This document shows, one piece after another, positions 1,295 through 31,080 of a DNA stretch of 64,000 nucleotides. This DNA comes from an uncultured Pirellula sp. (lineage in GTDB: Bacteria > Planctomycetota > Planctomycetia > Pirellulales > Pirellulaceae). The DNA is taken from positions 1 through 64,000 of the forward strand of contig CAITIE010000014.1 in NCBI GenBank assembly GCA_903892355.1, read 5' to 3'. Within the stretch, counting starts at the first letter, position 1, and each line of letters opens with the position of its first letter. The position numbers and the translations under genes were made by a program. The notes beneath the pieces were generated by a model that was not told the DNA's origin, ran no database searches, and saw nothing but the letters and a program-made list of their open reading frames with translations.

Positions 1295-2110
1295 ATGAGT
1301 ACCGGGTCAAAGCTTGCTCTTGTGGATGGGGTGGATACGCTCGCGAGCACTCCGGGATCGGCTCCGGCGCTGGATCGTGCGCTGGATATTCTGGAACTCC
1401 TCAGTCAGTCCCCTGTGGGCATGACGCTATCCGAACTGAGCGAGCAACTTGAACTACCCAAAAACTCGGTATTTCGGATCACGCAGACATTGCTCGCTCG
1501 AGGCTATTTAGATCGAGATTTGGACACGCTCGCCTTTCGACTTACCAGTCGCTTGCTGCGATTGGCTACGCCCCGCTGGGGCAGTGTCAGTTTGTCCGCT
1601 ATCTCCCGTGATTCTATGATCGCCCTTCGCGATCAGACCCGTGAAACCGTGCAACTAGGTGTGCTCAGTGGACTCGAAGGGGTGATCATCGATCAAGTCG
1701 AGGGGCTCGAGCCACTTCGTATTTCCGTCGACTTGGGATTACGGTTTTCGCTTCACAACAATGCACCCGGCAAGCTGCTCCTCGCCTATCTTCCCGCAGA
1801 ACAGCAGAACACGTTGTTGGCAAAAATCAAACTTACCCCTACCACGCCTCGTACCATCAGGAGCAAAAGCGAACTACTGACCGAATGCAGCCGGATTGTC
1901 GAATGCGGTTATGCGGTCGATTTCGCGGAATCCGATGAAGGAATTAATTGCGTTGCTGCTCCGATTGTAAACGCAAACGAATTGGTAGTCGCCGCATTAT
2001 GGATTTCCGGACCGGCAAAGCGATTACCTAGAAGCAAGTTTCGGGAATTGGGTACCATGGTCTGCGTTGCAGCTCGTCGCATCTCGCATAAAGTTGGAGG
2101 CTTGGGATGA
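1295..2110 (+). CDS. IclR-family transcriptional regulator
   Basis: A 271-residue one-component regulator with the usual two-part IclR layout. The N-terminal winged helix-turn-helix (about residues 27-85) contains ALDRALDILELLSQSP and the recognition segment LPKNSVFRITQTLLARGYL. The C-terminal effector domain (about 100-265) contains LHNNAPGKLLLAYLP and the Cys-Gly-Tyr-Ala-Val-Asp plus Glu-Gly-Ile-Asn-Cys-Val-Ala-Ala-Pro segments typical of the family. It is first in a co-directional cassette and its TGA overlaps the ATG of the next gene (ATGA at 2107-2110), so it is probably co-transcribed with, and controls, the PSD/DUF1552/PSCyt genes that follow. Family effectors are usually small carboxylic, aromatic or sugar acids; which one applies here cannot be read from the sequence. 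Confidence 0.93.
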   Translation: MSTGSKLALVDGVDTLASTPGSAPALDRALDILELLSQSPVGMTLSELSEQLELPKNSVFRITQTLLARGYLDRDLDTLAFRLTSRLLRLATPRWGSVSLSAISRDSMIALRDQTRETVQLGVLSGLEGVIIDQVEGLEPLRISVDLGLRFSLHNNAPGKLLLAYLPAEQQNTLLAKIKLTPTTPRTIRSKSELLTECSRIVECGYAVDFAESDEGINCVAAPIVNANELVVAALWISGPAKRLPRSKFRELGTMVCVAARRISHKVGGLG

Positions 2111-5016
2111 ATCGCCTCCTCCTTTTTACATTCCTCATGTCGGCTTTGCTTGCGGCGCAGAGTGCCAGCGCGCAACTACCGGAGCCCAGCCCCAATCGAG
2201 GGACGGAGGTTGAGCATACGCCAGAGTTGCTAGCAAAGCACTGCTTCGATTGTCATTCAGAATCGTCAAAAGAAGGCAACCTCGACCTGACGCAGTTACT
2301 TCGCCGAGACAGTTTTGATGGGACTCTGGTTTTCGAGAACGTCATTACCCAAAGGATGCCCCCTAGCGATGCGGAACAACCAACCGCTACCGAGCGTCAC
2401 ACGATCCTTAATTGGTTATCGACAAAGTCAATTCATCCCAACATCAAGCCTTATCGTCGGATGAGCCGCTTTGAGTTCAACCATAGCGCTAACGATTTAC
2501 TCGGGGTTCAGTTGGATGTGGCCAGTGAGATTCCGGAAGACCGAGGTACGAATGTCTTCGACTCGGACCGCAGAATCATGCTCTCGAAAGAACAGATGAG
2601 CGCCTACTTCGCCGCAGCCGACGATTTGCTCGAGTTTGCTTTGCCCGAAAACGGATTTCCGGTCGAGCAATCATGGACGACCAGCACCATCCAAGACAGT
2701 CATGAGTCCTACAATATCTATGTGCGAGATTACAAGGACGGGCTTCTGTTCTCTTGGACCCGCGCCAACAATGGCAATAACTACTCCTATTTTTACGATC
2801 ACTTTGAGCCCCCCGTCAAAGGTTGGTACGACCTGACTTTTGACGCGGCGAAAGTCGGTGATTTCGGGGAGGACGTGAGTGTTCTCGTCTACGCGGGCAA
2901 GTACTACTATGCAGACGATCGCCCGCAACCACAACGGTTGCTAGGTGTACTCTCACTCGGCAACACGGAACTTAAACCATACACGATTCGAGGCTTTGTC
3001 TACCCCGGAGAGAACATCTCGGTCCATTGCTATTCACGGCACACCTGGCGTCAACAAGGCGGTAATGAGGGTGCTTACATCAAGCAACTCAATATCCGTG
3101 GGCCAGTACTCGATGCGTGGCCGCCAACGACCTATCGCAAGCTTTTCGCCGATCTTCCGATGAGTGTCCCTGATCGCTTGACTCATACCAACCAAACATC
3201 GACGTCAGCCTTGCAACAAATCGGCGGCCGCGTCACTGTGAGCAGCTATCAAGTGGGTATGGAAAAGGAAAAGATGCTGGATCGCTCCAGCAAGACCTTT
3301 TGGCATACGCGCTTCACACCCGACGTCGCGATGCCCCCTCATCACGTCATCCTTGAGAATCCAAAGCAACACGAGATTTTGGGGCTGGTATACTCGACAT
3401 GGTCTGGTGGAAACGGCAACGGGCAAGTCAAAAGGTACGAAGTGGCTCTGTCGGACGATGGCGTGCGTTGGGAGGAACCGATCCAGCAAGGAAGCTTGGA
3501 GGTCATGCACGCGGCTGAACAGGAGATTCTATTCCCCGAAAAAACACGCAAGCCGTTTCTGCGGTTTCTTGTGAAAGAAGCGGTTGAACTCGATGGCAAA
3601 TCACTGGCATCGATCGGTGGATTGGACGTGATTCTCGAACGGCCCGAAACTGCAACCGTGAGCGTTCCGCCCCCGCAAAAGATTTCTACTGGCTCGAACT
3701 CAATACACGATTTGCAGCAAGTCGTTCGACGGTTTGCAAACGAAGCGTTTGCGTCCGAGCTATCCGAAGACGAGTTGGCGCCGTATTACACGGTGAGCCT
3801 GGAATCCTTCCGCGAAGATGGCGATTTTATCAATGCGGCCCGACAGGGGTTCAAGGCAATCCTTTGTTCCCATCGATTCTTGCTGGCACCTGGGTCGTAT
3901 CGCAACGATTCATACCGTATAGCCGCGAGCCTGGCGCGTTGCTTGTGGCTTTCGGTGCCGGATACCAGGTTGATGGAATTAGCCGCAGCGGACGATCTCC
4001 ATGGGGAGTCCATGTCGGCCGAAATCGATCGTATGCTGCGCGATCCTCGGGCTCGACGTATGATCCACTCGTTCTGCGATCAGTGGTTGAATTTGAGATC
4101 GTTCAACAAGGTTTCGCCTTCTCTAAAACTCTATCCAGAGTACAACAACCTGCTGAATTACTACCTCCCGCAGGAGACCGAGGATTTCCTGTTTCACCTC
4201 ATTCAAGAGAACTTGCCAGCTACCCACTTGATCGATTCCGATTTTTCGATGTTGAACCAACGATTGGCGCAGCATTACGGGATCGATGGGGTCATTGGTG
4301 AGGAGATGCGAAAGGTCATGTTGCCATCGGATAGTCCTCGCGGTGGACTGCTCACTATGGGCAGCATCCTCAAGGTCACTTCGGATGGGTTTCAGACCTC
4401 TCCCATTCTGCGAGGAGCGTGGGTTTCCAAGAACATTGCCGGAAACACGCTGTCGCCTCCTCCTGAGACGGTAAAAGCGATTGAACCTAACGCCCGCAGA
4501 GGGACGACACTCAAGGAACAAATCGAGGAACACAAAAACAACGCGACCTGTTTCGCTTGTCACAAAAGCATCGACCCTTACGGATTTGCGCTCGAAAGCT
4601 TTGATGCGACAGGAGAATTTCGTTCCAAGTATCGAGTCGAAGTTCCGCATCAAGGTACATTTATGTACCGGTTGGAAGGTTACTTTCAATGGGGAGGCGA
4701 CGTGGATCCCTCAGGAGACGTTGGGGACTCAGCGTTCGAGGATGTGAATGGACTCAAGAAACTGCTGATCTCCGACCACAAAAAGGTCGCCTACAATTTC
4801 GCAAAGAAATTCTTCGAGTACGCTAATGGTTACGAACCGACGCTCCATCAACGAATCGATCTGTACGGAATGATTGCCGACTCCCCAGAAGATTGCCGAT
4901 TGAAGGACTTGATTGCCAAGGTCATCATGGTTTCGTATAGCGGGGAAAACCGGGACGTTACCGCAAACGATGGAACAACGAACGATGGAACTGCGCACCG
5001 GAGAAACCAGCCATGA
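2107..5016 (+). CDS. Planctomycete PSD-type cytochrome protein (DUF1587-DUF1592-DUF1588-DUF1585)
   Basis: A 969-residue exported protein with a Sec signal peptide (residues 1-22, ending SASA). It has two CXXCH haem sites: CFDCH at 46-50 in the N-terminal PSCyt1-like segment, and CFACH at 815-819 in the segment that continues KSIDPYGFALESFD. Between them come a PSD3/DUF1587 segment (YRRMSRFEFNHSANDLLGV, about 118-136), a discoidin-like middle part, a PSD4/DUF1592 segment (from about residue 540), and a PSCyt3/DUF1588 segment (RGGLLTMGSILKVTSDG, SPILRGAWV). The C-terminal PSD2/DUF1585 part follows the second haem. These architectures are almost confined to planctomycetes and relatives and their biochemical role is not established; electron transfer at the cell surface is the usual suggestion. 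The gene is translationally coupled by ATGA at both ends, to the regulator upstream and the DUF1552 gene downstream. Confidence 0.92.
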   Translation: MNRLLLFTFLMSALLAAQSASAQLPEPSPNRGTEVEHTPELLAKHCFDCHSESSKEGNLDLTQLLRRDSFDGTLVFENVITQRMPPSDAEQPTATERHTILNWLSTKSIHPNIKPYRRMSRFEFNHSANDLLGVQLDVASEIPEDRGTNVFDSDRRIMLSKEQMSAYFAAADDLLEFALPENGFPVEQSWTTSTIQDSHESYNIYVRDYKDGLLFSWTRANNGNNYSYFYDHFEPPVKGWYDLTFDAAKVGDFGEDVSVLVYAGKYYYADDRPQPQRLLGVLSLGNTELKPYTIRGFVYPGENISVHCYSRHTWRQQGGNEGAYIKQLNIRGPVLDAWPPTTYRKLFADLPMSVPDRLTHTNQTSTSALQQIGGRVTVSSYQVGMEKEKMLDRSSKTFWHTRFTPDVAMPPHHVILENPKQHEILGLVYSTWSGGNGNGQVKRYEVALSDDGVRWEEPIQQGSLEVMHAAEQEILFPEKTRKPFLRFLVKEAVELDGKSLASIGGLDVILERPETATVSVPPPQKISTGSNSIHDLQQVVRRFANEAFASELSEDELAPYYTVSLESFREDGDFINAARQGFKAILCSHRFLLAPGSYRNDSYRIAASLARCLWLSVPDTRLMELAAADDLHGESMSAEIDRMLRDPRARRMIHSFCDQWLNLRSFNKVSPSLKLYPEYNNLLNYYLPQETEDFLFHLIQENLPATHLIDSDFSMLNQRLAQHYGIDGVIGEEMRKVMLPSDSPRGGLLTMGSILKVTSDGFQTSPILRGAWVSKNIAGNTLSPPPETVKAIEPNARRGTTLKEQIEEHKNNATCFACHKSIDPYGFALESFDATGEFRSKYRVEVPHQGTFMYRLEGYFQWGGDVDPSGDVGDSAFEDVNGLKKLLISDHKKVAYNFAKKFFEYANGYEPTLHQRIDLYGMIADSPEDCRLKDLIAKVIMVSYSGENRDVTANDGTTNDGTAHRRNQP

Positions 5017-6311
5017 ATCATGACGGTCTGTATCCGCGTCAGGTATTCGATGAGGAGGCTGATACGATTCTCTCGGCCAATAGCTCGCAAAGAGCGAAAT
5101 CGGCTCGGCGATCCTTTTTGAAATTCGGTGCTGCGCTTCCGTTAGCCTTGCACTCGCTGTCGCTCAGGGCTGAGGAAAAGGCAAAGAGTCCGCCGCGGCG
5201 CGTCTTGTTCATCTGCAATTCGCTAGGCTTCCATGCGCCTTACTTTTTTCCGAAGATGTCTGGTGATTTAGGGACATCGGAATACCTGAAAGGGATGAAG
5301 ACGTCCGAGAAGATGACGGTCTTCGGCAATTTCTTTCATCCTGGGATGGCGACCAGCAACCATGATTCTGAAAAATCGTTTTTAACGGGGACGCCCAACC
5401 CGGAAGCTTCTCAATTCATCAATGGGATTTCGCTGGACCAGTTGCTCGCACGAGAGATCGGGTCGGATACGCGTTTCCCATTCCTCAGTTTCAGCATCTA
5501 CAACCGTGGTTGGGGGTGCAGTTGGAACGATCGCGGGGTTGCCATTCCGCCGATGCACGACGAGGAGCAAATTTTTGATCTATTGTTCGGTGAAGAAGAT
5601 ATCCGCGCCAAGCAGCGGCAGCTTGCGAACGACACCAGGGTCCTCGAATGCCTTAGGCGTGATCTTACGGCGCTGCGCGCTTCGGGCGACGACCCATCTA
5701 AGCTCGATATGTACAGCACAGTGATTCGCGAGTTAGAAGCTCAACTGGAGCATGAAAAGTACTGGCTGAATACGAAGAAGCCCGTTGTCGAACGGTCGCT
5801 GAGTTCGGATAGGGAGTTCGAATTCTCCGCCAAAGTGCACAATATGTTCGAACTCGCGAAATTGGCGTTTCGTACCGACTCAACACGGGTGATTACGTTT
5901 TCCATGGATTGGATCTACGGTGCGATCAAGGTTCCGGGGGCGACGGGTGGTTGGCATACCCTGTCCCATCACGGAGGCAATCCCGACGTACTCTCCAGCC
6001 TCAGTTGTGTGGAACGCGATATCCTGAAACACTTCAACCAGTTCCTCTTCGATATGGATCAAATCCCTGAGGGAGATGGAACCTTGCTCGATCACACGAC
6101 GGTGGTGATGGGAAGTAACTTTGGGAACTCCTCCGATCATACTTGCAGCAATCTGCCCATACTCGTGGCAGGTGGGGGATACCAGCACCAAGGTCATCGG
6201 GTGCTGGACCAGCCAACACCTCTGTGCAATCTCTATTTAGAATTGTTGCATCGGCACAATATGGACGTCGGCAAATTCGGTAGTAGTCAAACGGATATGC
6301 GGTTACTCTGA
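5013..6311 (+). CDS. DUF1552 (HXXSHH) protein, Tat-exported
   Basis: A 432-residue protein. The N-terminus carries a twin-arginine signal, ARRSFLKFG followed by a hydrophobic stretch (about residues 27-50), so it is likely exported folded. The HXXSHH motif that names the family is present as HTLSHH at 315-320. DUF1552 proteins are nearly always found beside the PSD-type cytochrome proteins, as here, where the start overlaps the preceding stop (ATGA). The fold resembles DUF1501/alkaline-phosphatase-like proteins, but no reaction has been demonstrated as far as I know. It probably forms a complex or shared pathway with the upstream cytochrome protein. Confidence 0.92.
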   Translation: MNHDGLYPRQVFDEEADTILSANSSQRAKSARRSFLKFGAALPLALHSLSLRAEEKAKSPPRRVLFICNSLGFHAPYFFPKMSGDLGTSEYLKGMKTSEKMTVFGNFFHPGMATSNHDSEKSFLTGTPNPEASQFINGISLDQLLAREIGSDTRFPFLSFSIYNRGWGCSWNDRGVAIPPMHDEEQIFDLLFGEEDIRAKQRQLANDTRVLECLRRDLTALRASGDDPSKLDMYSTVIRELEAQLEHEKYWLNTKKPVVERSLSSDREFEFSAKVHNMFELAKLAFRTDSTRVITFSMDWIYGAIKVPGATGGWHTLSHHGGNPDVLSSLSCVERDILKHFNQFLFDMDQIPEGDGTLLDHTTVVMGSNFGNSSDHTCSNLPILVAGGGYQHQGHRVLDQPTPLCNLYLELLHRHNMDVGKFGSSQTDMRLL

Positions 6312-6371
6312 GTGGAACCGAACTCCAAATTGTTTTCTCGTATTCGAGAGTTTCCTCGACTGAACAAGTTC

Positions 6372-9300
6372 ATGCTAAATACGTTTGTTGTTCGACTGGC
6401 ATTGATTCTCGCTTGTTTCACACTGACGGCGCGTGCCGAGGATGTGTCGTTTAGCCGAGATGTTCGTCCCATCCTGTCGGACATGTGCTTTTCATGCCAT
6501 GGTCCGGACGAAAAAGGCCGCAAGGGAGAATTGCTGCTCAGCGAGTACGAGGCAGCGATCAAGGGTGGGGAGTCGGGCGAGCCTGCGATTGTCCCTGGGA
6601 ATCCGACGCTGAGCGAAATGATTCAACGCGTGCGCTCTGAGGACCTGGATGTGTGCATGCCTCCACCTCACACGAAGAAAAAGCTGACGGAAGAACAGAT
6701 CGCCGTCTTGGAAAAGTGGATTGCGGGTGGGGCTAAGTACGAAAAGCATTGGGCCTTTGAAGCCCCTGTGATGCCGTCGGTCCCTGGATCGGGCCCATCT
6801 GTATCTTCAACGGGGAGTAGGAATCCGATCGATGCGTTTGTGGGTACCGCTCTTGCTCAAAACGGATTATCGCCATCTCCGGAAGCTGACAAAGCAACCT
6901 TGTTTCGGCGTGTCTCGTTCGATTTGATTGGATTGCCACCATCGCCGGATGAACTGGCGATGTATCTGGCCGACACGTCACCTGATGCCTATGAGAAGGC
7001 CGTTGAACGTTTGCTTGATTCGCCGCATTATGGCGAACGCTGGGCGCGAAAATGGCTCGATCTGGCGCGCTACGCGGATACCAACGGTTACGAGAAGGAT
7101 CGAGGGCGGACGATATGGCCCTATCGGGATTGGGTCATCCGAGCCCTCAATGCAGATATGCCCTTCGATCAATTCAGTATTGAACAAATCGCAGGCGATC
7201 TGTTGCCGGGGGCGACGGTCGACCAGCGTATCGCAACGGGATTTCATCGCAACACCATGCTCAACGAAGAAGGGGGCATTGACCCATTAGAATTTCGATT
7301 CAATGCCATGGTGGATCGGATGGCCACCACCGGGGCGACGTGGCTCGGCCTGACGTTGCAATGTTGCCAGTGCCATACCCATAAATACGATCCTATTCCG
7401 CATCGAGAGTATTACGCCATGATGGCGTTTTTGAACAACGCGGACGAACCCGATCTGGAGTTACCGAATCGGGAGCAGGAAAGGGAAGCGGAAAGCCGTT
7501 GGGCACGCGCGGATGAGTTGGTGGAGGCTCTGCCTCGCAAATGGCCACTCCAGTCGCCAGCCGACGATTCCACGATTGCATGGACGGTACCAGCCATCTC
7601 CGTTTCCACGGATCCGTCGGAGAGTACCCGTATTCTTGACGATGGTTCGGTGCTCTTCCCTCCGTCCGGGCCTGCTTCGAGCAATATTGAAATCAAGATG
7701 CCCAGCCTGCGAGGGAAGTTCACTCATATGCGCGTCGAAGCGTTGACGGATGATTCGTTGCCCGGACGAGGACCGGGGCGAACGCCGCACGCCAATTTTG
7801 TGCTCAGCGAAGTGGAAGTTCGCAACAATGGTCAAAAGGTCAAGCTTTCGAACAGCGTCGCGAATGTTGAGCAAATCGGTTATCCGGCGTCAGCAGCTAT
7901 CGATGGAAGGAATGGAACTGGGTGGGCAGTGCATGCCGACGGCAAGGATATCCATAGCGATAAATCCTTAACCCTATCCTTCGATGCACTTATGGATGCG
8001 ACGGGTGACACCCAGGTTTCGCTGCGCCAGCAACACGGTTCGCAACACACCATCGGCCGTCTCAAAATCAGTTTCGGCACCTCCAATACGGACCCTGCGG
8101 AGCTTGAGCAGCAACGACGAGACTCGCTCGAAAAAGCCTTTGCAGGTTGGCTCGACCAGCAAAAAGCAGCGACCGCGAAGTGGCAGGTGGTCGTTCCGGT
8201 GAAGGCGACCTCCAATCTTCCTCTCTTGACCCTTCAACCCGATGCGTCGATCTTCGTATCTGGCGACATTACGAAAGCCGACACATACCAATTGGACCTC
8301 GGTAAGCCTGTCGGCGCGATTACAGCGATCCGTGTGGAAGCATTACCGGATCCACGTTTGCCGGGTCGTGGCCCTGGCATGGCGTACTACGAAGGGCCTA
8401 AGGGGGATTTCTTGATGGGTGAGTTTCAACTCACCGCGGATGGTGAGCCCGTAAAGATTGCGTCGGCTAGCCAAAGTTACGCAAAAAACAATTTCGGCTC
8501 ACAAGCCGAAGCGAGCTACGCCATCGATGGTGATCCAGAAACGGGGTGGAGTTGCGCGCAAGGACAAGGTCGTGCCCATGAAGCCGTATTCCGATTGGAG
8601 AAGCCACTTAACGCGTCTAGCCTGCAATTAACCATGATGTTCGGAAGGCATTACGCGTGCTCCTTGGGGCGTTTCCGTATTTCTGTGACGACGGATTCCG
8701 GAGAAGTGCAAGCCAGTAAGGTGGCGACCGAGGTTCAAGGTTTGTTGCACAAAGCAGATCGGACGGAGTCGGAAACTCAACGATTGAAGAATGAGTTCTT
8801 GCTTCATGCTCCGGAGCTCGCATCGTATCGCGCTGAGATAGAAGAATTGCGACGGCCTCCGGCATCTCTCACATCATTGGTACTTCAGGAACGCCCTGCC
8901 GAAAATCCGCGAGCGACATACATCCACCATCGTGGGGAGTGGACGCAACCTACGGATGCCGTTGAGCCAGCAGTCCTTTCGGTCCTGAACCCCATTCCTA
9001 GTGGAGATTCCCGAAACCGACTTGGTTTCGCGAGATGGCTGGTGAGTCGTTCGAACCCACTAACCTCACGCGTGGTGGTCAATCGAGCGTGGGCTACGTT
9101 CTTTGGCCGTGGGATCGTGAAGACACAAGAGGATTTTGGTTTTCAAGGAAGTCCACCCTCACACCCGCAGCTTCTAGACTGGTTGGCGATTCGCTTTATG
9201 GATGACGGATGGTCTTTTAAAAAGCTGCATCGCCTGATTGTGACCAGCAACACCTACAAGCAATCCAGCAGCTCGAATGCGATCGGCGAGGAAAAAGATC

Positions 9301-9938
9301 CTGAGAATGTACTCCTTTGGCGAGGGCCACGACTGAGGCTCGATGCAGAAGAGGTCCGAGATGCAGCCCTTCGTTATGCCGGTATTTTGTCGGAGAAAAT
9401 GTATGGGCCCAGTGTGTTTCCCCCGCAGCCACCTAGTGTGACCACCGAGGGAACGTATGGTGCGATGACGTGGGCCACGAGCAATGGAGAGGACCGTTAC
9501 CGTCGAAGCCTCTATACATTCACCAAACGCACGGCTCCTTTTGCGTTTGGAAATACGTTTGACGCTCCATCCGGTGAAGCGTGCATCGTTCGTCGGGACC
9601 GATCGAACACACCGCTACAAGCACTCACCATGCTCAATGACGTCACCATCATGGAATCCGCTCAGGCCTTAGGGAAATATTTGGCTGAGTCGAACGGAAG
9701 CACTGAGCAGCGTATTTCCGACGCATTTGTGCGTTGCTTTTCCCGTCCCCCGGATCCAGAGGAGGCGTCAGCGGTTCTCGGATTTATCCAAAAGCAATGG
9801 CAGCGATTTGCAGCAGCACCCGAATCCGCTCTATCGCTTGCTGGGGTCGGTCCCATCGAAACCGTGGTGGCCCGTGCAGCCTGGACCGCAGCAGCCCGTG
9901 CATTGATGAATATGGACGAGTTCGTCACTAAGAGGTAA
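6372..9938 (+). CDS. PSCyt1-DUF1549-DUF1553 planctomycete cytochrome protein
   Basis: About 1188 residues from the ATG at 6372. I prefer this start to the GTG at 6312 because it gives a clean signal peptide ending TLTARA. CFSCH (39-43) opens the PSCyt1 domain, which continues through MPPPHTKKKLTEEQIAVLEKW. PSCyt2/DUF1549 follows (IDAFVGTALAQNGLSPSPEA to about residue 370) with a second haem-like motif, CCQCH, at 331-335 followed by THKYDPI. The C-terminal third is PSD1/DUF1553 (NRLGFARWLVSRSNPLTSRV, VNRAWATFFGRGIVKTQEDFG, RRDRSNTPLQALTMLND). The middle holds two similar carbohydrate-binding-like modules, each opening RVEAL, LPGRGPG and a VLSE or LMGE step. This family is typically paired with a DUF1501 protein, which is the next gene. 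It is probably an exported electron-transfer partner of DUF1501; the substrate is unknown. Confidence 0.92.
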   Translation: MLNTFVVRLALILACFTLTARAEDVSFSRDVRPILSDMCFSCHGPDEKGRKGELLLSEYEAAIKGGESGEPAIVPGNPTLSEMIQRVRSEDLDVCMPPPHTKKKLTEEQIAVLEKWIAGGAKYEKHWAFEAPVMPSVPGSGPSVSSTGSRNPIDAFVGTALAQNGLSPSPEADKATLFRRVSFDLIGLPPSPDELAMYLADTSPDAYEKAVERLLDSPHYGERWARKWLDLARYADTNGYEKDRGRTIWPYRDWVIRALNADMPFDQFSIEQIAGDLLPGATVDQRIATGFHRNTMLNEEGGIDPLEFRFNAMVDRMATTGATWLGLTLQCCQCHTHKYDPIPHREYYAMMAFLNNADEPDLELPNREQEREAESRWARADELVEALPRKWPLQSPADDSTIAWTVPAISVSTDPSESTRILDDGSVLFPPSGPASSNIEIKMPSLRGKFTHMRVEALTDDSLPGRGPGRTPHANFVLSEVEVRNNGQKVKLSNSVANVEQIGYPASAAIDGRNGTGWAVHADGKDIHSDKSLTLSFDALMDATGDTQVSLRQQHGSQHTIGRLKISFGTSNTDPAELEQQRRDSLEKAFAGWLDQQKAATAKWQVVVPVKATSNLPLLTLQPDASIFVSGDITKADTYQLDLGKPVGAITAIRVEALPDPRLPGRGPGMAYYEGPKGDFLMGEFQLTADGEPVKIASASQSYAKNNFGSQAEASYAIDGDPETGWSCAQGQGRAHEAVFRLEKPLNASSLQLTMMFGRHYACSLGRFRISVTTDSGEVQASKVATEVQGLLHKADRTESETQRLKNEFLLHAPELASYRAEIEELRRPPASLTSLVLQERPAENPRATYIHHRGEWTQPTDAVEPAVLSVLNPIPSGDSRNRLGFARWLVSRSNPLTSRVVVNRAWATFFGRGIVKTQEDFGFQGSPPSHPQLLDWLAIRFMDDGWSFKKLHRLIVTSNTYKQSSSSNAIGEEKDPENVLLWRGPRLRLDAEEVRDAALRYAGILSEKMYGPSVFPPQPPSVTTEGTYGAMTWATSNGEDRYRRSLYTFTKRTAPFAFGNTFDAPSGEACIVRRDRSNTPLQALTMLNDVTIMESAQALGKYLAESNGSTEQRISDAFVRCFSRPPDPEEASAVLGFIQKQWQRFAAAPESALSLAGVGPIETVVARAAWTAAARALMNMDEFVTKR

Positions 9939-9946
9939 TCATTTTT

Positions 9947-11383
9947 ATGGATCCGATTCAACGAAGCAGTCTTGATGTGACCCGCCGCCATTTTCTGCGT
10001 GATTGCGGCGTCGGGGTTGGAAAGATGGCCTTGGCCGGATTGCTCGCAGAAGAACTATGCGCACAGCCGCCTGGGACGTACGTCGACCCATTGGCACCTC
10101 GTCCGCCTCACTTTCCGGGTAAAGCCAAGGCCGTTATCCATTTGTTCATGGCGGGAGCTCCAAGCCATCTCGAACTGTTCGACTTCAAGCCTGCGCTTTC
10201 CGAGATGGATGGCAAGCCTTTGCCCGCGTCGGTCACCGAAGGCCAACGCCTTGCGTTTATTCGCTCCGATGCGGCGGTGATGGGGCCGCAGTTCAAATTC
10301 GCAAGGCACGGTCAATCGGGGATGGAGATATCCGAGGCGTTGCCTTACCTATCCAAGATTGTCGATGACATATGCCTAGTTCGTTCATGCCACACCGATC
10401 AATTCAATCATGCTCCGGCACAAACCTTTTTTCAAACAGGATTTGCCGTACCCGGCCGACCCAGTTTTGGGTCGTGGGTGACGTACGGATTGGGGTGTGT
10501 AACGAGAGATCTTCCCGCCTTTGTGGTGCTCAGCACCGGCAGTGGGATCAGTGGCGGTAGCGGACTGTGGTCGAGTGGATTTCTGCCGAGCATCTACACC
10601 GGCGTTCGATTCCGCAATCAAGGCGATCCGATTTTGAATGTGACGAACCCGGCTGGGGTCGATGCAACATTGCAAAGAGATACGATCGATCTAGTGAGCG
10701 ATTTGAGTCGCAAGCGACTAGAAGAAACCGGAGATGCCGAGATTTCAACGCGGCTCGCCAATTATGAGATGGCCTTTCGGATGCAAACGTCGGCTCCGGA
10801 ATTGATGGACTTAAGCGGGGAGAGCAAGGAAACCTTGGATCTATACGGATGCGATCCTGCGGTCCCTTCATTCGCACGAGCGTGTCTCTTAGCACGCCGA
10901 ATGATTGAACGCGGAGTGCGTTTTGTGAATATCTTCCATGAAGGATGGGACGCGCACAGCGATGTTGTTGGGAATCACCGCGGCAACTGCAAAACGACCG
11001 ATCAAGCGAGCGCGGCGTTGATCATCGACTTGAAAAATCGCGGACTACTCGATGAAACGCTCGTGGTTTGGGGTGGAGAATTCGGACGGACTCCAATGGT
11101 TGAGAGCAATGCAGCCTTGGGGCGATCACGTGGTCGGGATCACCACCCAAAAGCCTACAGCATGTGGATGGCGGGTGGCGGTATCCGGGCCGGTTGGACG
11201 CATGGAACCACAGACGAATTAGGCTACAACATCGTTCAAGATCCCGTGCATGTTCATGATATTCAAGCGACGCTACTGCATTGCCTCGGCTTTGATCATG
11301 AGCGACTCACTTATCGGGCCCAAGGCCGCGATTATCGACTGACCGATGTTCATGGACACGTCGTTCAATCGATTCTGGCCTGA
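9947..11383 (+). CDS. DUF1501 protein, Tat-exported
   Basis: A 478-residue sulfatase/phosphatase-fold protein. The twin-arginine signal TRRHFLRDCGVG is at the N-terminus. Family landmarks include HLFMAGAPSHLELFD, the VRSCHTDQFNHAPAQ segment, the VFVNIFHEGWDAH-type segment and VVWGGEFGRTPMVE near residue 370, followed by GRDHHPKAYSMWMAGGGI. It starts 8 bp after the PSCyt1-DUF1553 gene ends, the standard planctomycete pair. The fold belongs to the alkaline phosphatase superfamily, but whether this protein hydrolyses anything is not known. Confidence 0.93.
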   Translation: MDPIQRSSLDVTRRHFLRDCGVGVGKMALAGLLAEELCAQPPGTYVDPLAPRPPHFPGKAKAVIHLFMAGAPSHLELFDFKPALSEMDGKPLPASVTEGQRLAFIRSDAAVMGPQFKFARHGQSGMEISEALPYLSKIVDDICLVRSCHTDQFNHAPAQTFFQTGFAVPGRPSFGSWVTYGLGCVTRDLPAFVVLSTGSGISGGSGLWSSGFLPSIYTGVRFRNQGDPILNVTNPAGVDATLQRDTIDLVSDLSRKRLEETGDAEISTRLANYEMAFRMQTSAPELMDLSGESKETLDLYGCDPAVPSFARACLLARRMIERGVRFVNIFHEGWDAHSDVVGNHRGNCKTTDQASAALIIDLKNRGLLDETLVVWGGEFGRTPMVESNAALGRSRGRDHHPKAYSMWMAGGGIRAGWTHGTTDELGYNIVQDPVHVHDIQATLLHCLGFDHERLTYRAQGRDYRLTDVHGHVVQSILA

Positions 11384-11422
11384 TTTCTCGTTCGATGATG
11401 AATCCCTTCAAATAGCGAGAAA
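11384..11422 (+). promoter_or_regulatory. Inverted repeat overlapping the Shine-Dalgarno of the beta-helix gene
   Basis: TTTCTCG at 11384-11390 is complementary to CGAGAAA at 11416-11422. The right arm contains the purine-rich GAGAAAG that serves as the ribosome-binding site for the start at 11429. Pairing in the mRNA would hide that site. The loop is 25 nt, so the structure is only moderately stable. Confidence 0.3.
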
Positions 11423-11428
11423 GACGAC

Positions 11429-13840
11429 ATGTCCCGCTTTGGTAGTTACTTGGTGCTTGCGATCACTTGTTCGTTGGTGATGGTTGTGTCGATGAAGGCC
11501 GCATTGTCGGCCGACGAAGTGCGTGGGGTGAGCTTTTACGTCTCGCCGACTGGGAGCGACATGAACTCTGGATCCGCGACGGAGCCGTTTGCCACTCTTG
11601 GTGCCGCGCAGCGAGCTGTGCGTCGGTTCGCAGGTCGAGAACCCGTCACGGTTTGGTTGAGTGAGGGGACTTATTATCTGCCAGAGACATTGCGATTCAC
11701 GGCCGAGGATTCAGGTTCGGCGAAGGGGCCAACTGTCTATGCTGCGATGCCCGGTGAGCGACCAATCATCAGTGGCGGGATGCGATTGGTTCTGGATTGG
11801 AAACCCTCAGGCGGTGGGATCTACGAAGCGAAAACGCCTGCTGGGTTGACGATGGATCAAATGTTTGTGGACGGAAATCGGCAGCATATGGCGCGCTATC
11901 CCAACTATGACCCAACGGCGCGACAGTTTAATGGAGCCGCAGCGGATGCGATTTCACCTGAACGCGTGGCGAGGTGGGGTGAGGATCCTGCGGGCGGATA
12001 TATCCATGCCATGCACACAGCTCTCTGGGGCGACATGCATTGGCGAATCCTCAGCAAGAAACCCGATAACACGCTCGAAATGGAAGGTGGTTGGCAAAAC
12101 AATCGCCCTAGTCCGATGCATCCCGATTTTCGGTTCGTCGAAAACATTCGCGAAGAACTCGATGCGCCGGGGGAATGGTTTCATGATTTCAAAAAAGGCG
12201 TACTGTACTTTTATCCACCCACCGGATTGGATCTAAAGTCCGCCGCGGTCGATGTGGTTCGCTTGCGACACCTGATCGAATGGAATGGATCCCCCCATGA
12301 TCCCGTTCGGTTTGTCACGCTGCGAGGCATCACGTTCAAGCATGCCGCTCGGACTTTTATGGAAAACCGCGAACCTTTATTGCGTTCCGATTGGACGACC
12401 TACCGCGGCGGAGCATTGACGTTCCATGGTGCCGAAGACATAGCAATCGAAGATTGCGATTTTGATCAACTCGGTGGTAACACAGTCTTTGTGAATAATT
12501 ACAACCGAAGGATCACCGTACGAGGATGCTTGATCCGCGAAAGTGGCGCCAATGGCGTTGCTTTTGTTGGAGATCCGCAGGCCGTTCGTAATCCGTTGTA
12601 CAACTACAATCAAGTCGCAGATTATGCCGCGTTGGATCGGAATCCGGGGCCACTATCGGAGAATTATCCGAGCGACTGCGTCGTCGAGGATTGCTTGATC
12701 ACCCGCAGCGGACGGTTTGAAAAGCAAACCGCACCCGTGCAGATTGCGATGGCGCGAGGCATTACCGTGCGCAGCTGTTCGATCTACGATGTGCCACGCG
12801 CAGGGATCAACATCGGTGATGGGTGCTGGGGTGGGCATCTCATCGAACACTGCGATGTATTCGACACCGTGCTGGAGACGGGAGACCATGGCAGCTTCAA
12901 TTCATGGGGACGCGATCGGTATTGGAAGCCGGGGCGAGAACCTGTGGAAGAGGCGGTTGCCGCCGACCCCAACCTGCCCTTTTTAGATATGGTCCAGCAA
13001 AGTGTGCTGCGCAACAATCGATGGCGATGCGACCATGGTTGGGATGTGGATTTGGACGATGGTTCCAGCCGATATGCCATTTACGAAAATTTATTCTTGA
13101 ATGGAGGTTTGAAACTCCGCGAAGGGTACGATCGGATCGCTACCAATAACATCATCGTGAACAACGGCCTCCATCCCCATGTTTGGTACGACAACAGTGG
13201 CGATGTCATCGCGAGGAATATCGTGATGCACGCTCCTCAACCGGCGATCATGAAGGACTCCAAATGGGGCAAGCAAGTGGATTTCAATCTCTACACGACA
13301 ACCGACGCAGATCGAATTGCATTTGCGGGTCAAGGGTGCGATGCGCATTCAACTGTGGGGGATCCGCTTTTTATCGATGCGGAGCGTGGGGATTTTCGAG
13401 TGCAACAAGGCTCGCCGGCATTGGAGCTCGGGTTTGTGAATTTTCAAATGGACCAGTTCGGTGTTCGATCACCGAGACTGAAAGCCATGGCCCGCACGCC
13501 GGAGATTCCTACAGTGAAAATTGTTGCTCGTACGGCTGATTCATCCAAGGATGGGATCGAGTGGCAAGGTGCAAGACTGCGATCACTTGTGGATCAAGAG
13601 TTTTCCGCGATCGGCGTAGCAGCCGATGCGAAGGGGGTACTCATCGTCGATTTGGCCGAAGAGTCAATTCTTTTCAAAGCTGGTTTGCGTCGAGGGGATT
13701 TCATACAGCGCGCCCGTCGCCAACAAATCCAAACGCCGGACGAGTTCCTTGCTGAGGTAATGTCTGCGACTAGTGATGAGTTGATCGAGATCGTTTTCCT
13801 GCGAAATCAAACCACTCAATCGATCAAGTTCCAAAAATGA
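11429..13840 (+). CDS. Secreted right-handed beta-helix protein with C-terminal PDZ domain
   Basis: An 803-residue exported protein with a signal peptide ending ALSADE. After it comes FYVSPTGSDMNSGSATEPFA, the entry motif of many parallel beta-helix carbohydrate-active proteins. Residues of roughly 290-640 show short repeats of the right-handed helix type (VEDCLITRSG, ITVRGCLIRESGANGV, ITVRSCSIYDVPRAGINIGD). The last ~95 residues (IGVAADAKGVLIVDLAEESI, FKAGLRRGDFIQRA) form a PDZ domain, as in HtrA-type proteases but without a protease. Beta-helix proteins of this type are often polysaccharide lyases, epimerases or glycosidases; the exact activity is not recognisable. It ends the IclR cassette, which suggests a polysaccharide-linked role for the whole set. 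Confidence 0.85.
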   Translation: MSRFGSYLVLAITCSLVMVVSMKAALSADEVRGVSFYVSPTGSDMNSGSATEPFATLGAAQRAVRRFAGREPVTVWLSEGTYYLPETLRFTAEDSGSAKGPTVYAAMPGERPIISGGMRLVLDWKPSGGGIYEAKTPAGLTMDQMFVDGNRQHMARYPNYDPTARQFNGAAADAISPERVARWGEDPAGGYIHAMHTALWGDMHWRILSKKPDNTLEMEGGWQNNRPSPMHPDFRFVENIREELDAPGEWFHDFKKGVLYFYPPTGLDLKSAAVDVVRLRHLIEWNGSPHDPVRFVTLRGITFKHAARTFMENREPLLRSDWTTYRGGALTFHGAEDIAIEDCDFDQLGGNTVFVNNYNRRITVRGCLIRESGANGVAFVGDPQAVRNPLYNYNQVADYAALDRNPGPLSENYPSDCVVEDCLITRSGRFEKQTAPVQIAMARGITVRSCSIYDVPRAGINIGDGCWGGHLIEHCDVFDTVLETGDHGSFNSWGRDRYWKPGREPVEEAVAADPNLPFLDMVQQSVLRNNRWRCDHGWDVDLDDGSSRYAIYENLFLNGGLKLREGYDRIATNNIIVNNGLHPHVWYDNSGDVIARNIVMHAPQPAIMKDSKWGKQVDFNLYTTTDADRIAFAGQGCDAHSTVGDPLFIDAERGDFRVQQGSPALELGFVNFQMDQFGVRSPRLKAMARTPEIPTVKIVARTADSSKDGIEWQGARLRSLVDQEFSAIGVAADAKGVLIVDLAEESILFKAGLRRGDFIQRARRQQIQTPDEFLAEVMSATSDELIEIVFLRNQTTQSIKFQK

Positions 13841-28110: not shown

Positions 28111-31080
28111 TTATGCAGCTCGGACGGCTCGGCTGTTTTGAGCCCACTCGATCCAGTGCTCAATGCGTTGACGGTCGGGAGCGTTTCCGCCACGCAGGAA
28201 CCGTTGGCCTTGTTTGCTCGATGCGACCGATGTGATTGCGGCCTGCAGCGATGCTGCATTCATCGACGCGACTGCTTCTGCCGTCGTGCAGCCGGAGGCA
28301 ACAAGCAGTTGGGCATCTGTCCCTCGAAGGTTAGGAATCCTGCACACCAACATGGCTTGCTGTTGCCATTGGCCGACAACATCTTTGTTGACACCCTTTT
28401 CAGCGAGTGCGTCGGCAATTTCTGACTCGTCGGCGGCGACCAAATCTCCGACGGTCTTGATATTGATGGCGTGCAGTTTTTCCGCCATCTTTGGTCCAAT
28501 GGTTGGTGCGTCCACGACAGGGCTAGCGAGTTCCAGGTAGAACTTCCAATGGGATTCGACGGGAACTTTCTTGATGGGCGATTGCGCTACCGGTCTACCA
28601 GCATCTTCTGCAACTTCAGGGCGTGCCCAACGTCGCTTCATCCGTCGGCGCAACCGTCGTTCACTTCGAGGTGTCTCGTTGACTTCGTCGACGTTCGCCG
28701 TTGTGGCATTCGCAGTTGCAAGGGTGGCTCTCTGACCTCGCACATGCGAGATCCAATTCTGGATCCGTGCAATTTCAGCTTCAGTAGCCGTGCGCATCAA
28801 TCCTCGTCCTGCGTCGGTGGCTAGGAAATTCTGAACTCGCTCCGCAATCTCGTGCGACCGAGCTTGGGCAAGCTGTGTCGCGCGAGTGATTCCGCAGCAG
28901 ACCAAGACGCGGGCATCAAAGGCCTTCATTTGGGGCGCATGGCACATCAGATCGACAACGCTCAAGATGCGTTGAATGGTGCGAGGCTCCGTTGCGAGAA
29001 CGGCTGCTACGCGTTCGAGCGGTGCATGGATCAGGTCCACCACTCGATGAATCCCAACCGATCGGAGCTTGCGAGCTGACTCGACGCCGAAGCTGGGAAC
29101 ATGCTCGACGGGGCTGTCTGGTGACAAGTAATACGTTTTTCCATGAACCGTGTAGACCAGCGGTTGCGAAGCAGCCGCAGCAGGAATTTGTTTGCGGATC
29201 GCCGGTGACCACCACGCCGCGGTCTGCTCTTCCGTTGCAATGCCATCGAGCAGTCGGTTGACCTCATTCAATTCCGGATAAGCCGCTCGGGGAGATACCG
29301 ATGGGTAAGCTTCCTGCGCTCGGTAGGAATCCGCCGCCGGAATGCCTGCTTGAAGGCCAGCACCATAACTGACGACTGGAGCGCGATCGAGGATCGGGTG
29401 GACACCTAAATCGGTATCGGTATCGATCACATAGTGGGGCTTTGCGTAGCGGAGGTTTTCGTGAACTCTCGCAACGGACCCTCCATGGGCGGCGATTCGT
29501 CGCGCAACGAACTCATCGCCGGTGGTGACGAGGATCTGTCGACCATCGCGCGAAACACGAGCCAGGACGTGCAGCAATTGCTCGAGCGGCTCATCGCGGA
29601 ATCCATCGATCGAATGCTCGAGAATCATAGGAATTCGTCCGATGCGAGTCGACGCAGTGGTGGCAATCGCCAATCGTATTGCGAGATCGACCAAACGCCG
29701 TTGCCGTGTATTGGGTGCAGGCACGGTCTTATCGAGCCATGCATCCCGTTCCACCGTTTGGTTCGAATAACCACCGACTCGGGCATCGGATGGCCCATAG
29801 ATCGACTCAGCGTTGGTGTAAGACGCTTCGATCGCCCAAGGGGGCAACTGGCGGACCGCGCCCGCCGTCAACTCCCGCAGGAACTTCTCAGCGGTTGGGA
29901 TCAATGATCCTTCAGAGGTCCGTCGGTATGGCGAACGAGTTCGTAAGTGCGATTGGACTTCCGCGAGTCGACGATGTGATCCTTCGCGACGGTCCCATCG
30001 GCGAATCATCTCTTCGGCGTGGGTCAATTGCTGACGCAACTGGCTGTCGTCCCATTGAGGAGCGGTCCACGGCGAGACGGGAACACTTCCCGCGGCGAGA
30101 TGCTGCCGAATCTGACCTTCGATGGTTGCTTGATCGGCCGCCAATCGATCGATTCGGGTTTGGATTGCGAGGCGTTCGGCACTCGCATCAACACGGTCGG
30201 TCGGTCGCACTTTCGGCGTCTGAAGCGATCCGAAATTCTGAGAGCTTCGATGATCGTCGCGGCGATCGGGCCGACGGGTTGCGTCTGCCCATTTGTCGGA
30301 TTCGGTAACGGATTGTTCCTGAAGTGCAGCCCGCTCTTTTGCGAGTTCAAGCTTGATCGCTGCAAGCCGGGCTTCTAGGTTTTCGCAAGATGGCGCTCGC
30401 GATGCGGCGCGTTGCTGGTTGGAGTGCGCGACGTGGGTGAGTTCCGCATGAATACGATCCCTTTCGAGCACCCACCATGATCGATCATGATCGACCGCAT
30501 CGGAATGGCGAAGTCGGTCCAGAAGTTCACGCTCTTCGTTTTTCAAGCGCTCGTAACCTTCATCGAGCTCGGTCCGGGCCGCCGCATGGACCCCCAAGCG
30601 GCTCGCTGCCCACCATAGTTTCTCCGGGGATACCGAACCGAGTGGGCTGCAGAATACCATCGAAAGAATATCGCTGCGCATGTCATCCCAGCGTCCATCT
30701 TCCTCGTCACCCTCCCAAAACAAATTGCCGACACCGCGGATCCGCGCTGCGTCGTCTTCGTAGATGGGTTGGTCGGACGGATGGAGCGGCGAGTGGACGT
30801 AGCGCGACGGAATGACCGGTGCTCCGCCTGCGCATGAAATCATTCGCAAATGGCCCGAAGCGTCCACCCAGGTAAGCGATCCATCGACCGCTTCAAAGTC
30901 GGCGTCTTCCAAATCGGTCAACGATTGGCCGTGAAATAATACGTTGCGGACAAACCGGCTTAGCAACGCGCTCGCTGCGGGGATCGGCGAGTAAACAGCA
31001 TTCAACCCGCCACCCAAGGGGCCAACTTGAAACTGAGATGCTGTGTTTTTCTTGTCGATGTCCAATCGAACCAAATGCAT
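28111..31080 (-). CDS. YhaN/SMC-like protein with lost ATPase motifs and tandem DUF4332 domains
   Basis: 989 residues, cytoplasmic, with GGAGAGGGAGG as ribosome-binding site. The N-terminus follows the YhaN/SMC pattern (LxIxxF, then GxGLNxIYGPNEAGKSTL), but the Walker A loop reads SPIPAASALL at 31-40: glycine, lysine and serine/threonine are all gone. Residues of about 180-400 are polar, Arg/Glu-rich and coiled-coil-like. The second half-site (RQRRLVDLAIRLAI, then MILEHSIDGFRDEPLEQLL, then GRQILVTTGDE) aligns with the signature, Walker B and D-loop region of ABC-type ATPases, with EHS where the catalytic Asp-Asp/Glu should be. The C-terminal third carries two DUF4332 helix-hairpin-helix-like units, starting VPSFGVESARKLRSVGIHRV and APTIGPKMAEKLHAINIKTV. 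It therefore looks like a non-hydrolysing structural DNA-binding relative. It is probably expressed on its own. Confidence 0.75.
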   Translation of the reverse strand: MHLVRLDIDKKNTASQFQVGPLGGGLNAVYSPIPAASALLSRFVRNVLFHGQSLTDLEDADFEAVDGSLTWVDASGHLRMISCAGGAPVIPSRYVHSPLHPSDQPIYEDDAARIRGVGNLFWEGDEEDGRWDDMRSDILSMVFCSPLGSVSPEKLWWAASRLGVHAAARTELDEGYERLKNEERELLDRLRHSDAVDHDRSWWVLERDRIHAELTHVAHSNQQRAASRAPSCENLEARLAAIKLELAKERAALQEQSVTESDKWADATRRPDRRDDHRSSQNFGSLQTPKVRPTDRVDASAERLAIQTRIDRLAADQATIEGQIRQHLAAGSVPVSPWTAPQWDDSQLRQQLTHAEEMIRRWDRREGSHRRLAEVQSHLRTRSPYRRTSEGSLIPTAEKFLRELTAGAVRQLPPWAIEASYTNAESIYGPSDARVGGYSNQTVERDAWLDKTVPAPNTRQRRLVDLAIRLAIATTASTRIGRIPMILEHSIDGFRDEPLEQLLHVLARVSRDGRQILVTTGDEFVARRIAAHGGSVARVHENLRYAKPHYVIDTDTDLGVHPILDRAPVVSYGAGLQAGIPAADSYRAQEAYPSVSPRAAYPELNEVNRLLDGIATEEQTAAWWSPAIRKQIPAAAASQPLVYTVHGKTYYLSPDSPVEHVPSFGVESARKLRSVGIHRVVDLIHAPLERVAAVLATEPRTIQRILSVVDLMCHAPQMKAFDARVLVCCGITRATQLAQARSHEIAERVQNFLATDAGRGLMRTATEAEIARIQNWISHVRGQRATLATANATTANVDEVNETPRSERRLRRRMKRRWARPEVAEDAGRPVAQSPIKKVPVESHWKFYLELASPVVDAPTIGPKMAEKLHAINIKTVGDLVAADESEIADALAEKGVNKDVVGQWQQQAMLVCRIPNLRGTDAQLLVASGCTTAEAVASMNAASLQAAITSVASSKQGQRFLRGGNAPDRQRIEHWIEWAQNSRAVRAA

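Follow-up and report, generated by a model that had tools for sequence, protein, structure and literature searches.

The stretch of DNA analysed here, referred to as the window, comprises 64,000 nucleotides of a contig from an uncultured Pirellula sp. and includes a 989-aa ORF that is open at 28111-31080 on the minus strand, as seen in the ORF list and the translation of the window. The upstream neighbor, on the same strand, encodes a BPD_transp_2 permease and the downstream neighbor a sugar transporter. A Pfam search with the 989-aa protein reported DUF4332 and HHH_5, both over cut-off, and no ATPase family. A second full copy was absent from the window's assembly, which contains just one further match, to a small DUF4332 protein of 139 aa. 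The genome (G000) also codes for an ordinary SMC protein (contig C106) with both SMC_N parts over cut-off. At other loci of the genus a small conserved gene immediately follows the orthologous gene on the same strand (for example locus L103, 6188-6901, minus strand); this gene (cluster C1), which presumably resembles DUF4254 at L103 and the 12 other loci, was seen at 13 genus loci representing 12 distinct genomes and is missing from the window's locus. The features discussed below, in which the head and motif assignments are predictions, are as follows.

28111..31080, minus strand: whole gene, predicted ATPase-dead YhaN/Rad50-like protein with two DUF4332 units
30361..31080, minus strand: N-terminal half of the former ATPase head, residues 1-240
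30964..30990, minus strand: former Walker A (P-loop), residues 31-39, SPIPAASAL, placed by motif columns
30055..30360, minus strand: variable stretch between the head halves, a putative arm remnant, residues 241-342
29356..29898, minus strand: C-terminal half of the former head, residues about 395-575
29701..29715, minus strand: former ABC signature, residues 456-460, PNTRQ (LSSGT in relative L064), placed by motif columns
29611..29625, minus strand: former Walker B, residues 486-490, ILEHS (ILDDV in L064), placed by motif columns
28726..29133, minus strand: first DUF4332 unit, residues about 650-785, one of two Pfam DUF4332 stretches
28138..28503, minus strand: second DUF4332 unit, residues 860-981, with a helix-hairpin-helix match at 858-908

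A first-pass annotation of this DNA had pointed to recognisable flanks of both halves of an ATPase site, and these are indeed all present: GLNAVY (residues 25-30), RQRRLVDLAIRLAI (residues 459-472) and QILVTTGDE (residues 515-523). The profile-profile comparison with YhaN that it suggested for both half-sites gives clear matches. With a genus profile of 26 rows, window included, and 12 plain YhaN proteins, hhalign places columns 1-49 of the N-terminal half on YhaN columns 1-49, in register (E 3.4e-7), and aligns 73 columns of the C-terminal half, also in register (E 1.6e-9). The same genus profile matches the f4 relatives with E values of 5e-11 and 6e-10, and residues 1-570 of 19 genus rows compared with 12 whole YhaN proteins yield a single match at residues 459-531 (E 1.2e-6). 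In each of six comparisons, none of 60 column-shuffled profiles reached the real score, and the resemblance of the head to YhaN is thus beyond chance. Intact or nearly intact relatives match AAA_27 in Pfam (L064, 2.6e-15; L139, 9.2e-8). Against solved structures, a family profile that includes relatives with intact motifs (A3) matched Rad50, SbcC and SMC chains; these include the Rad50 chain 3qf7_A (1.6e-12, best stretch in the C-terminal half) and the SMC chain 1e69_A, matched at profile positions 1-67 (1.3e-7). The other 403 sequences matched by A3 include many coiled-coil proteins, myosin for example, and coiled coil therefore accounts for a share of the A3 scores, but the best stretches of 3qf7_A and 1e69_A fall within the head. 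Neither the genus-only profile (A5) nor the single window protein matched a head among the solved structures, and the link to these structures therefore runs through intermediates. Taken on its sequence, the window protein is almost certainly a descendant of a YhaN/Rad50-type ATPase that has lost its ATPase motifs, which agrees with the descent proposed in the first-pass annotation. The middle part, annotated at first as a coiled coil, is short and partly missing: the distance from the start of the N-terminal half to the start of the C-terminal half is 301-427 residues in the genus vs. 901-1019 in plain YhaN, and residues about 241-342 are largely absent from 6 of the 19 aligned orthologues.

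The motif positions were read from the columns of intact relatives, and at these positions the window protein lacks all three motifs, namely Walker A (GxxxxGK[ST]), the signature glycine (LS-x-G) and Walker B (D[DE]). Among the 26 rows of the window's genus (g1), GK[ST] is found in none, the signature, counted as the glycine in one column only, in none and D[DE] in nine, with 17 rows carrying none of the three. Walker A had been described as replaced, and this holds for the whole genus; replacement of the Walker B acid, claimed in the same place, is correct for the window, which together with its near relatives reads E-H or E-N, and does not extend to the nine genus rows that keep D plus D/E. 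The 26 rows come from different assemblies (two are cut by contig ends), and since GK[ST] is absent from every one of them, sequencing error is ruled out as the cause of the P-loop loss.

Beyond the genus, the three motifs are together intact in 0 of 61 compared proteins of the window's family (f1). The 33 other f1 rows, which were picked by hand from the listed matches to span genera and are not a random sample, include none with all three motifs, 21 with GK[ST], six with the signature glycine, five with Walker B and ten with none. Both proteins of genus g299 keep the P-loop (GARGAGKS) and Walker B (LDD) and have lost the signature, leaving all three intact in 0/2. The same 88-row head alignment shows the full set of three motifs intact in 9/9 f4, 6/6 g10 and 12/12 plain YhaN proteins, the last set being 12 partners from 15 YhaO-like loci (partners at L211, L214 and L215 were left out). 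Three near-intact f1 proteins (L132, L139 and L152) have both Walker A and the signature glycine in place and differ only by N for the first Walker B acid; given these and the nine genus rows with D[DE], some kin may still bind ATP. Of the 12 plain YhaN rows, eight are from f1 genomes, including that of the window, and the motif loss thus belongs to the protein lineage, not to the organisms.

A scan of 84,980 species genomes, reaching close relatives only, returned six loci, all titled Pirellula or Planctomycetota. Matches were found in 46 of 392 genomes of the phylum and 206 of 241 genomes of the family, many of them to other DUF4332 proteins. The relatives were found with a query that itself contains DUF4332, so the observation that members carry this domain is partly by construction. 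A 76-row alignment leaves out the repeat contig records L033-L036, the gene pieces L032 and L037 of genome G488, the protein L046 that is cut by a contig end, the short DUF4332 proteins L070-L073 and 15 phospholipase-like DUF4332 proteins. A tree computed with the motif columns excluded groups the 26 genus rows in one clade (SH-aLRT 99) with g299 as its sister (94), and places both within a 70-row DUF4332 clade (98). As read from the tree, the signature would have been lost before g1 and g299 split and the P-loop thereafter in g1, with the Walker B acids partly remaining. Over the whole tree the P-loop state changes at least nine times, a rough figure because this is a quick tree with long branches that meet.

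Matches to the gene occur in 27/27 genomes of the genus, and the best match of each is free of inner stops. Compared with the orthologue in G469, which is 89% identical, the two head halves have the lowest dN/dS in the protein (0.039 for the N-terminal half; 0.022 for the C-terminal half, residues 343-575), with the middle at 0.073. The linkers reach 0.153 and 0.164, the ratios in the DUF4332 units are 0.080 and 0.047, and the protein as a whole has 0.063. The head halves are 95%–96% identical at the amino-acid level between the window and G469, compared with 69% for the neighboring MFS gene, whose synonymous sites are saturated, and 94% for a second neighbor; saturation also affects several regions in the comparison with G478. 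Relative to the closer G488, the first 233 residues are identical; the C-terminal part holds few changes, with dN/dS of 0.083 for the C-terminal head half, 0.165 and 0.041 for the DUF4332 units and 0.111 overall, and at this low divergence the second DUF4332 unit is more constrained than the C-terminal head half. The dead head is under purifying selection in this genus. Mean column identity over 19 genus rows is 0.87 before the former P-loop, 0.50 in residues 31-41 and 0.77 after it, and five of 190 windows of the N-terminal half in all are as low as the former P-loop, the others starting at 51-54. Such a dip is the pattern expected if the fold was kept and the nucleotide site released. Synonymous divergence from G488 is 0.04–0.12 over residues 1-645 and 0.37–0.55 over residues 646-989 (28111-29145, compared with L032), which looks like an exchange of the DUF4332 end through recombination.

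The protein scores 102.8 bits with PF14229 (DUF4332; cut-off 23.2) in two stretches. Residues 650-788, covering the first unit, match other DUF4332 proteins by BLAST, and in several orthologues the hairpin of this unit looks eroded by eye. HHH_5 (1.5e-8) exceeds its cut-off in the second unit only, an overlap that fits DNA binding. The first-pass annotation had proposed a structural or nucleoid-organising protein special to planctomycetes; the protein may have such a role, for which the HHH_5 similarity is the one hint in the sequence, in a genome that also codes for an ordinary SMC. The f4 relatives, in which all three motifs are intact (9/9), also match the DUF4332 region (Pfam on L044 gives two stretches), and the fusion is therefore older than the motif loss. 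The view that DUF4332 units were gained together with or after the loss of the ATPase motifs, as had been annotated, does not survive this comparison, and a gain within the window's own lineage is ruled out. DUF4332 is also present in the g10 YhaN group elsewhere on the tree; since the g10 proteins group with three plain f4 YhaN proteins (SH-aLRT 99), the domain was fused on no fewer than two occasions, or else it was lost or exchanged. Stand-alone DUF4332 proteins of 135-139 aa exist, as do other carriers. At L042 (5955-7922, minus strand), a zinc-dependent phospholipase-C-like domain is fused to a C-terminal DUF4332, and its HHKLA/HHRLA motif is common to 14 further DUF4332 proteins among the fetched loci. 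At L225 (G000:C32:120000-131240), a three-gene run at 1976-7576 on the plus strand, coding for 494, 227 and 1148 aa, closes with a gene whose product matches AAA_29 and SbcC_Walker_B, and a stand-alone DUF4332 gene converges on it; we take this run to look like a Wadjet-type operon.

A YhaO/SbcD-like gene lies just upstream on the same strand at 7/9 f4 and 6/6 g10 loci. Pfam gave weak matches only for five of these 13 YhaO-like proteins, and a profile of these proteins finds Metallophos-matching proteins (L202, 1.1e-5; L215, 4.8e-14). The profile finds matches in 229 of 241 f1 genomes, and none among the ORFs of at least 100 aa at 60 f1 loci outside the window; 53 of these loci have at least 1.5 kb of upstream sequence, and a YhaO-like ORF is absent from all 53. 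In the window's genome the match lies on C64 and overlaps a plain YhaN with intact motifs, and a move of the window protein's nuclease partner to another place in the genome was rejected on this ground. This overlapping YhaO-like/YhaN pair occupies 6806-11853 on the plus strand of L202 (G000:C64:209000-225000), and its YhaO-like protein is without GNHD. Two copies that we call canonical here (L214 and L215) keep D-x-H, GD-x-x-D and GNHD, which we take to be the YhaO metal-site motifs. GNHD is kept by none of 13 other YhaO-like copies outside DUF4332 loci, and the metal sites of the 13 DUF4332-associated copies are degraded further, with single residues persisting (e.g., H-D in three). In this class, YhaO-like subunits that lack nuclease activity may be widespread.

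We consider it fairly probable that the window protein is a pseudo-ATPase derived from an accessory Mre11-Rad50-like (YhaO-YhaN-like) planctomycete system and now serves as a passive clamp or adaptor on DNA. The ancestor would have been a Rad50/YhaN-type subunit already carrying C-terminal DUF4332 units. The window protein would no longer run the ATP cycle, its head halves would provide a fixed base, independent of nucleotide, on which dimers form or partners bind, and DNA would be held by the DUF4332 units, so that the whole protein may be a passive clamp or adaptor and not a motor. A static scaffold is probable because the parts that bind ATP were lost while the dead motor domain stayed strongly conserved; to the passive DNA-scaffold mechanism itself we give about an even chance. 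A wider scenario, on which we can only speculate, is that Pirellula-family planctomycetes converted an entire Mre11-Rad50-type machine into a DNA architecture protein with no enzymatic activity. In it, a nuclease-like subunit would have lost its metal ligands and been dropped, the signature and Walker B and then the P-loop would have been lost separately in several genera, and the dead head with its helix-hairpin-helix units would clamp DNA and help to fold the condensed nucleoid.

A static clamp or adaptor appears to be the simplest reading of these sequences, and its main rival is a brake on the intact YhaN. In that case the protein would be an inactive partner of the YhaO-YhaN pair on C64, its dead head pairing with an active YhaN head to block or gate it. 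The same genome does keep that pair with the YhaN motifs intact, and the head halves are the parts most constrained relative to G469, as an interface would be. An ABC head dimer builds an ATP site by joining Walker A from one head with the signature from its partner, so pairing of the window head, which has neither, with an intact YhaN should give no working ATP site. The absence of a YhaO-like ORF from 53 of 53 f1 loci gives no sign of an operon link, and plain YhaN is longer by about 500 residues between the head halves, which makes matched rods unlikely; we regard a brake as improbable. A comparably low probability is given to a head that binds another ligand or partner, neither ATP nor DNA, with the DUF4332 units serving protein contacts and the DNA work abandoned. 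The fusion of DUF4332 to a phospholipase-C-like domain (L042) and the unrelated small gene of cluster C1 directly after the pseudo-ATPase gene would suit such a role, whereas the helix-hairpin-helix match over cut-off in the second DUF4332 unit and the Rad50/YhaN-like nature of the closest full-length kin speak for DNA. Motifs missing from many family members could also be taken for a pseudogene midway through decay, a reading with hardly any probability left: conservation across all 27 genus genomes without inner stops in the best matches, and overall dN/dS of 0.063 relative to G469 and 0.111 relative to the C-terminal part of G488, rule it out, and an assembly error likewise.

Head engagement driven by ATP is viewed as the core property of SMC and Rad50 proteins. 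Relatives that lack the signature, Walker B or the P-loop, together with a dead head under selection, thus offer a natural experiment on the function of the head in the absence of ATP, and the family provides a testable setting for DUF4332, a domain of unknown function. Among the matches listed in our literature search, no title or abstract opening describes such a motif-loss series or family, and none is on the topic of YhaN with YhaO; the sole mention of DUF4332 found is in a passage worded like a figure legend (PMC9769723).

Like YhaN (AAA_27, PF13514; partner YhaO), the window protein has a split ABC-type head with homologous halves; unlike YhaN, it is without the P-loop, signature and Walker B, has less than half the spacing between the head halves, bears two C-terminal DUF4332 units and has no YhaO-like neighbor. 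Rad50 and SbcC are the best matches of the family profile among solved structures; a passage of PMC4494100 states that Rad50 function depends on ATP binding and hydrolysis, and the motifs for both have been lost here. With SMC it shares the profile match to the head of 1e69_A, yet it differs in lacking the motifs, and the genome has an SMC of its own. The two DUF4332 stretches, scoring over the gathering cut-off, place it beside other DUF4332 (PF14229) and HHH_5 proteins, from which, whether stand-alone or fused to other carriers, it differs in that its DUF4332 sits on a dead ATPase head. Since the features that define the ATPase family are lacking, the window protein would appear to be built from a Rad50/YhaN head and not to be a member of that family in function.
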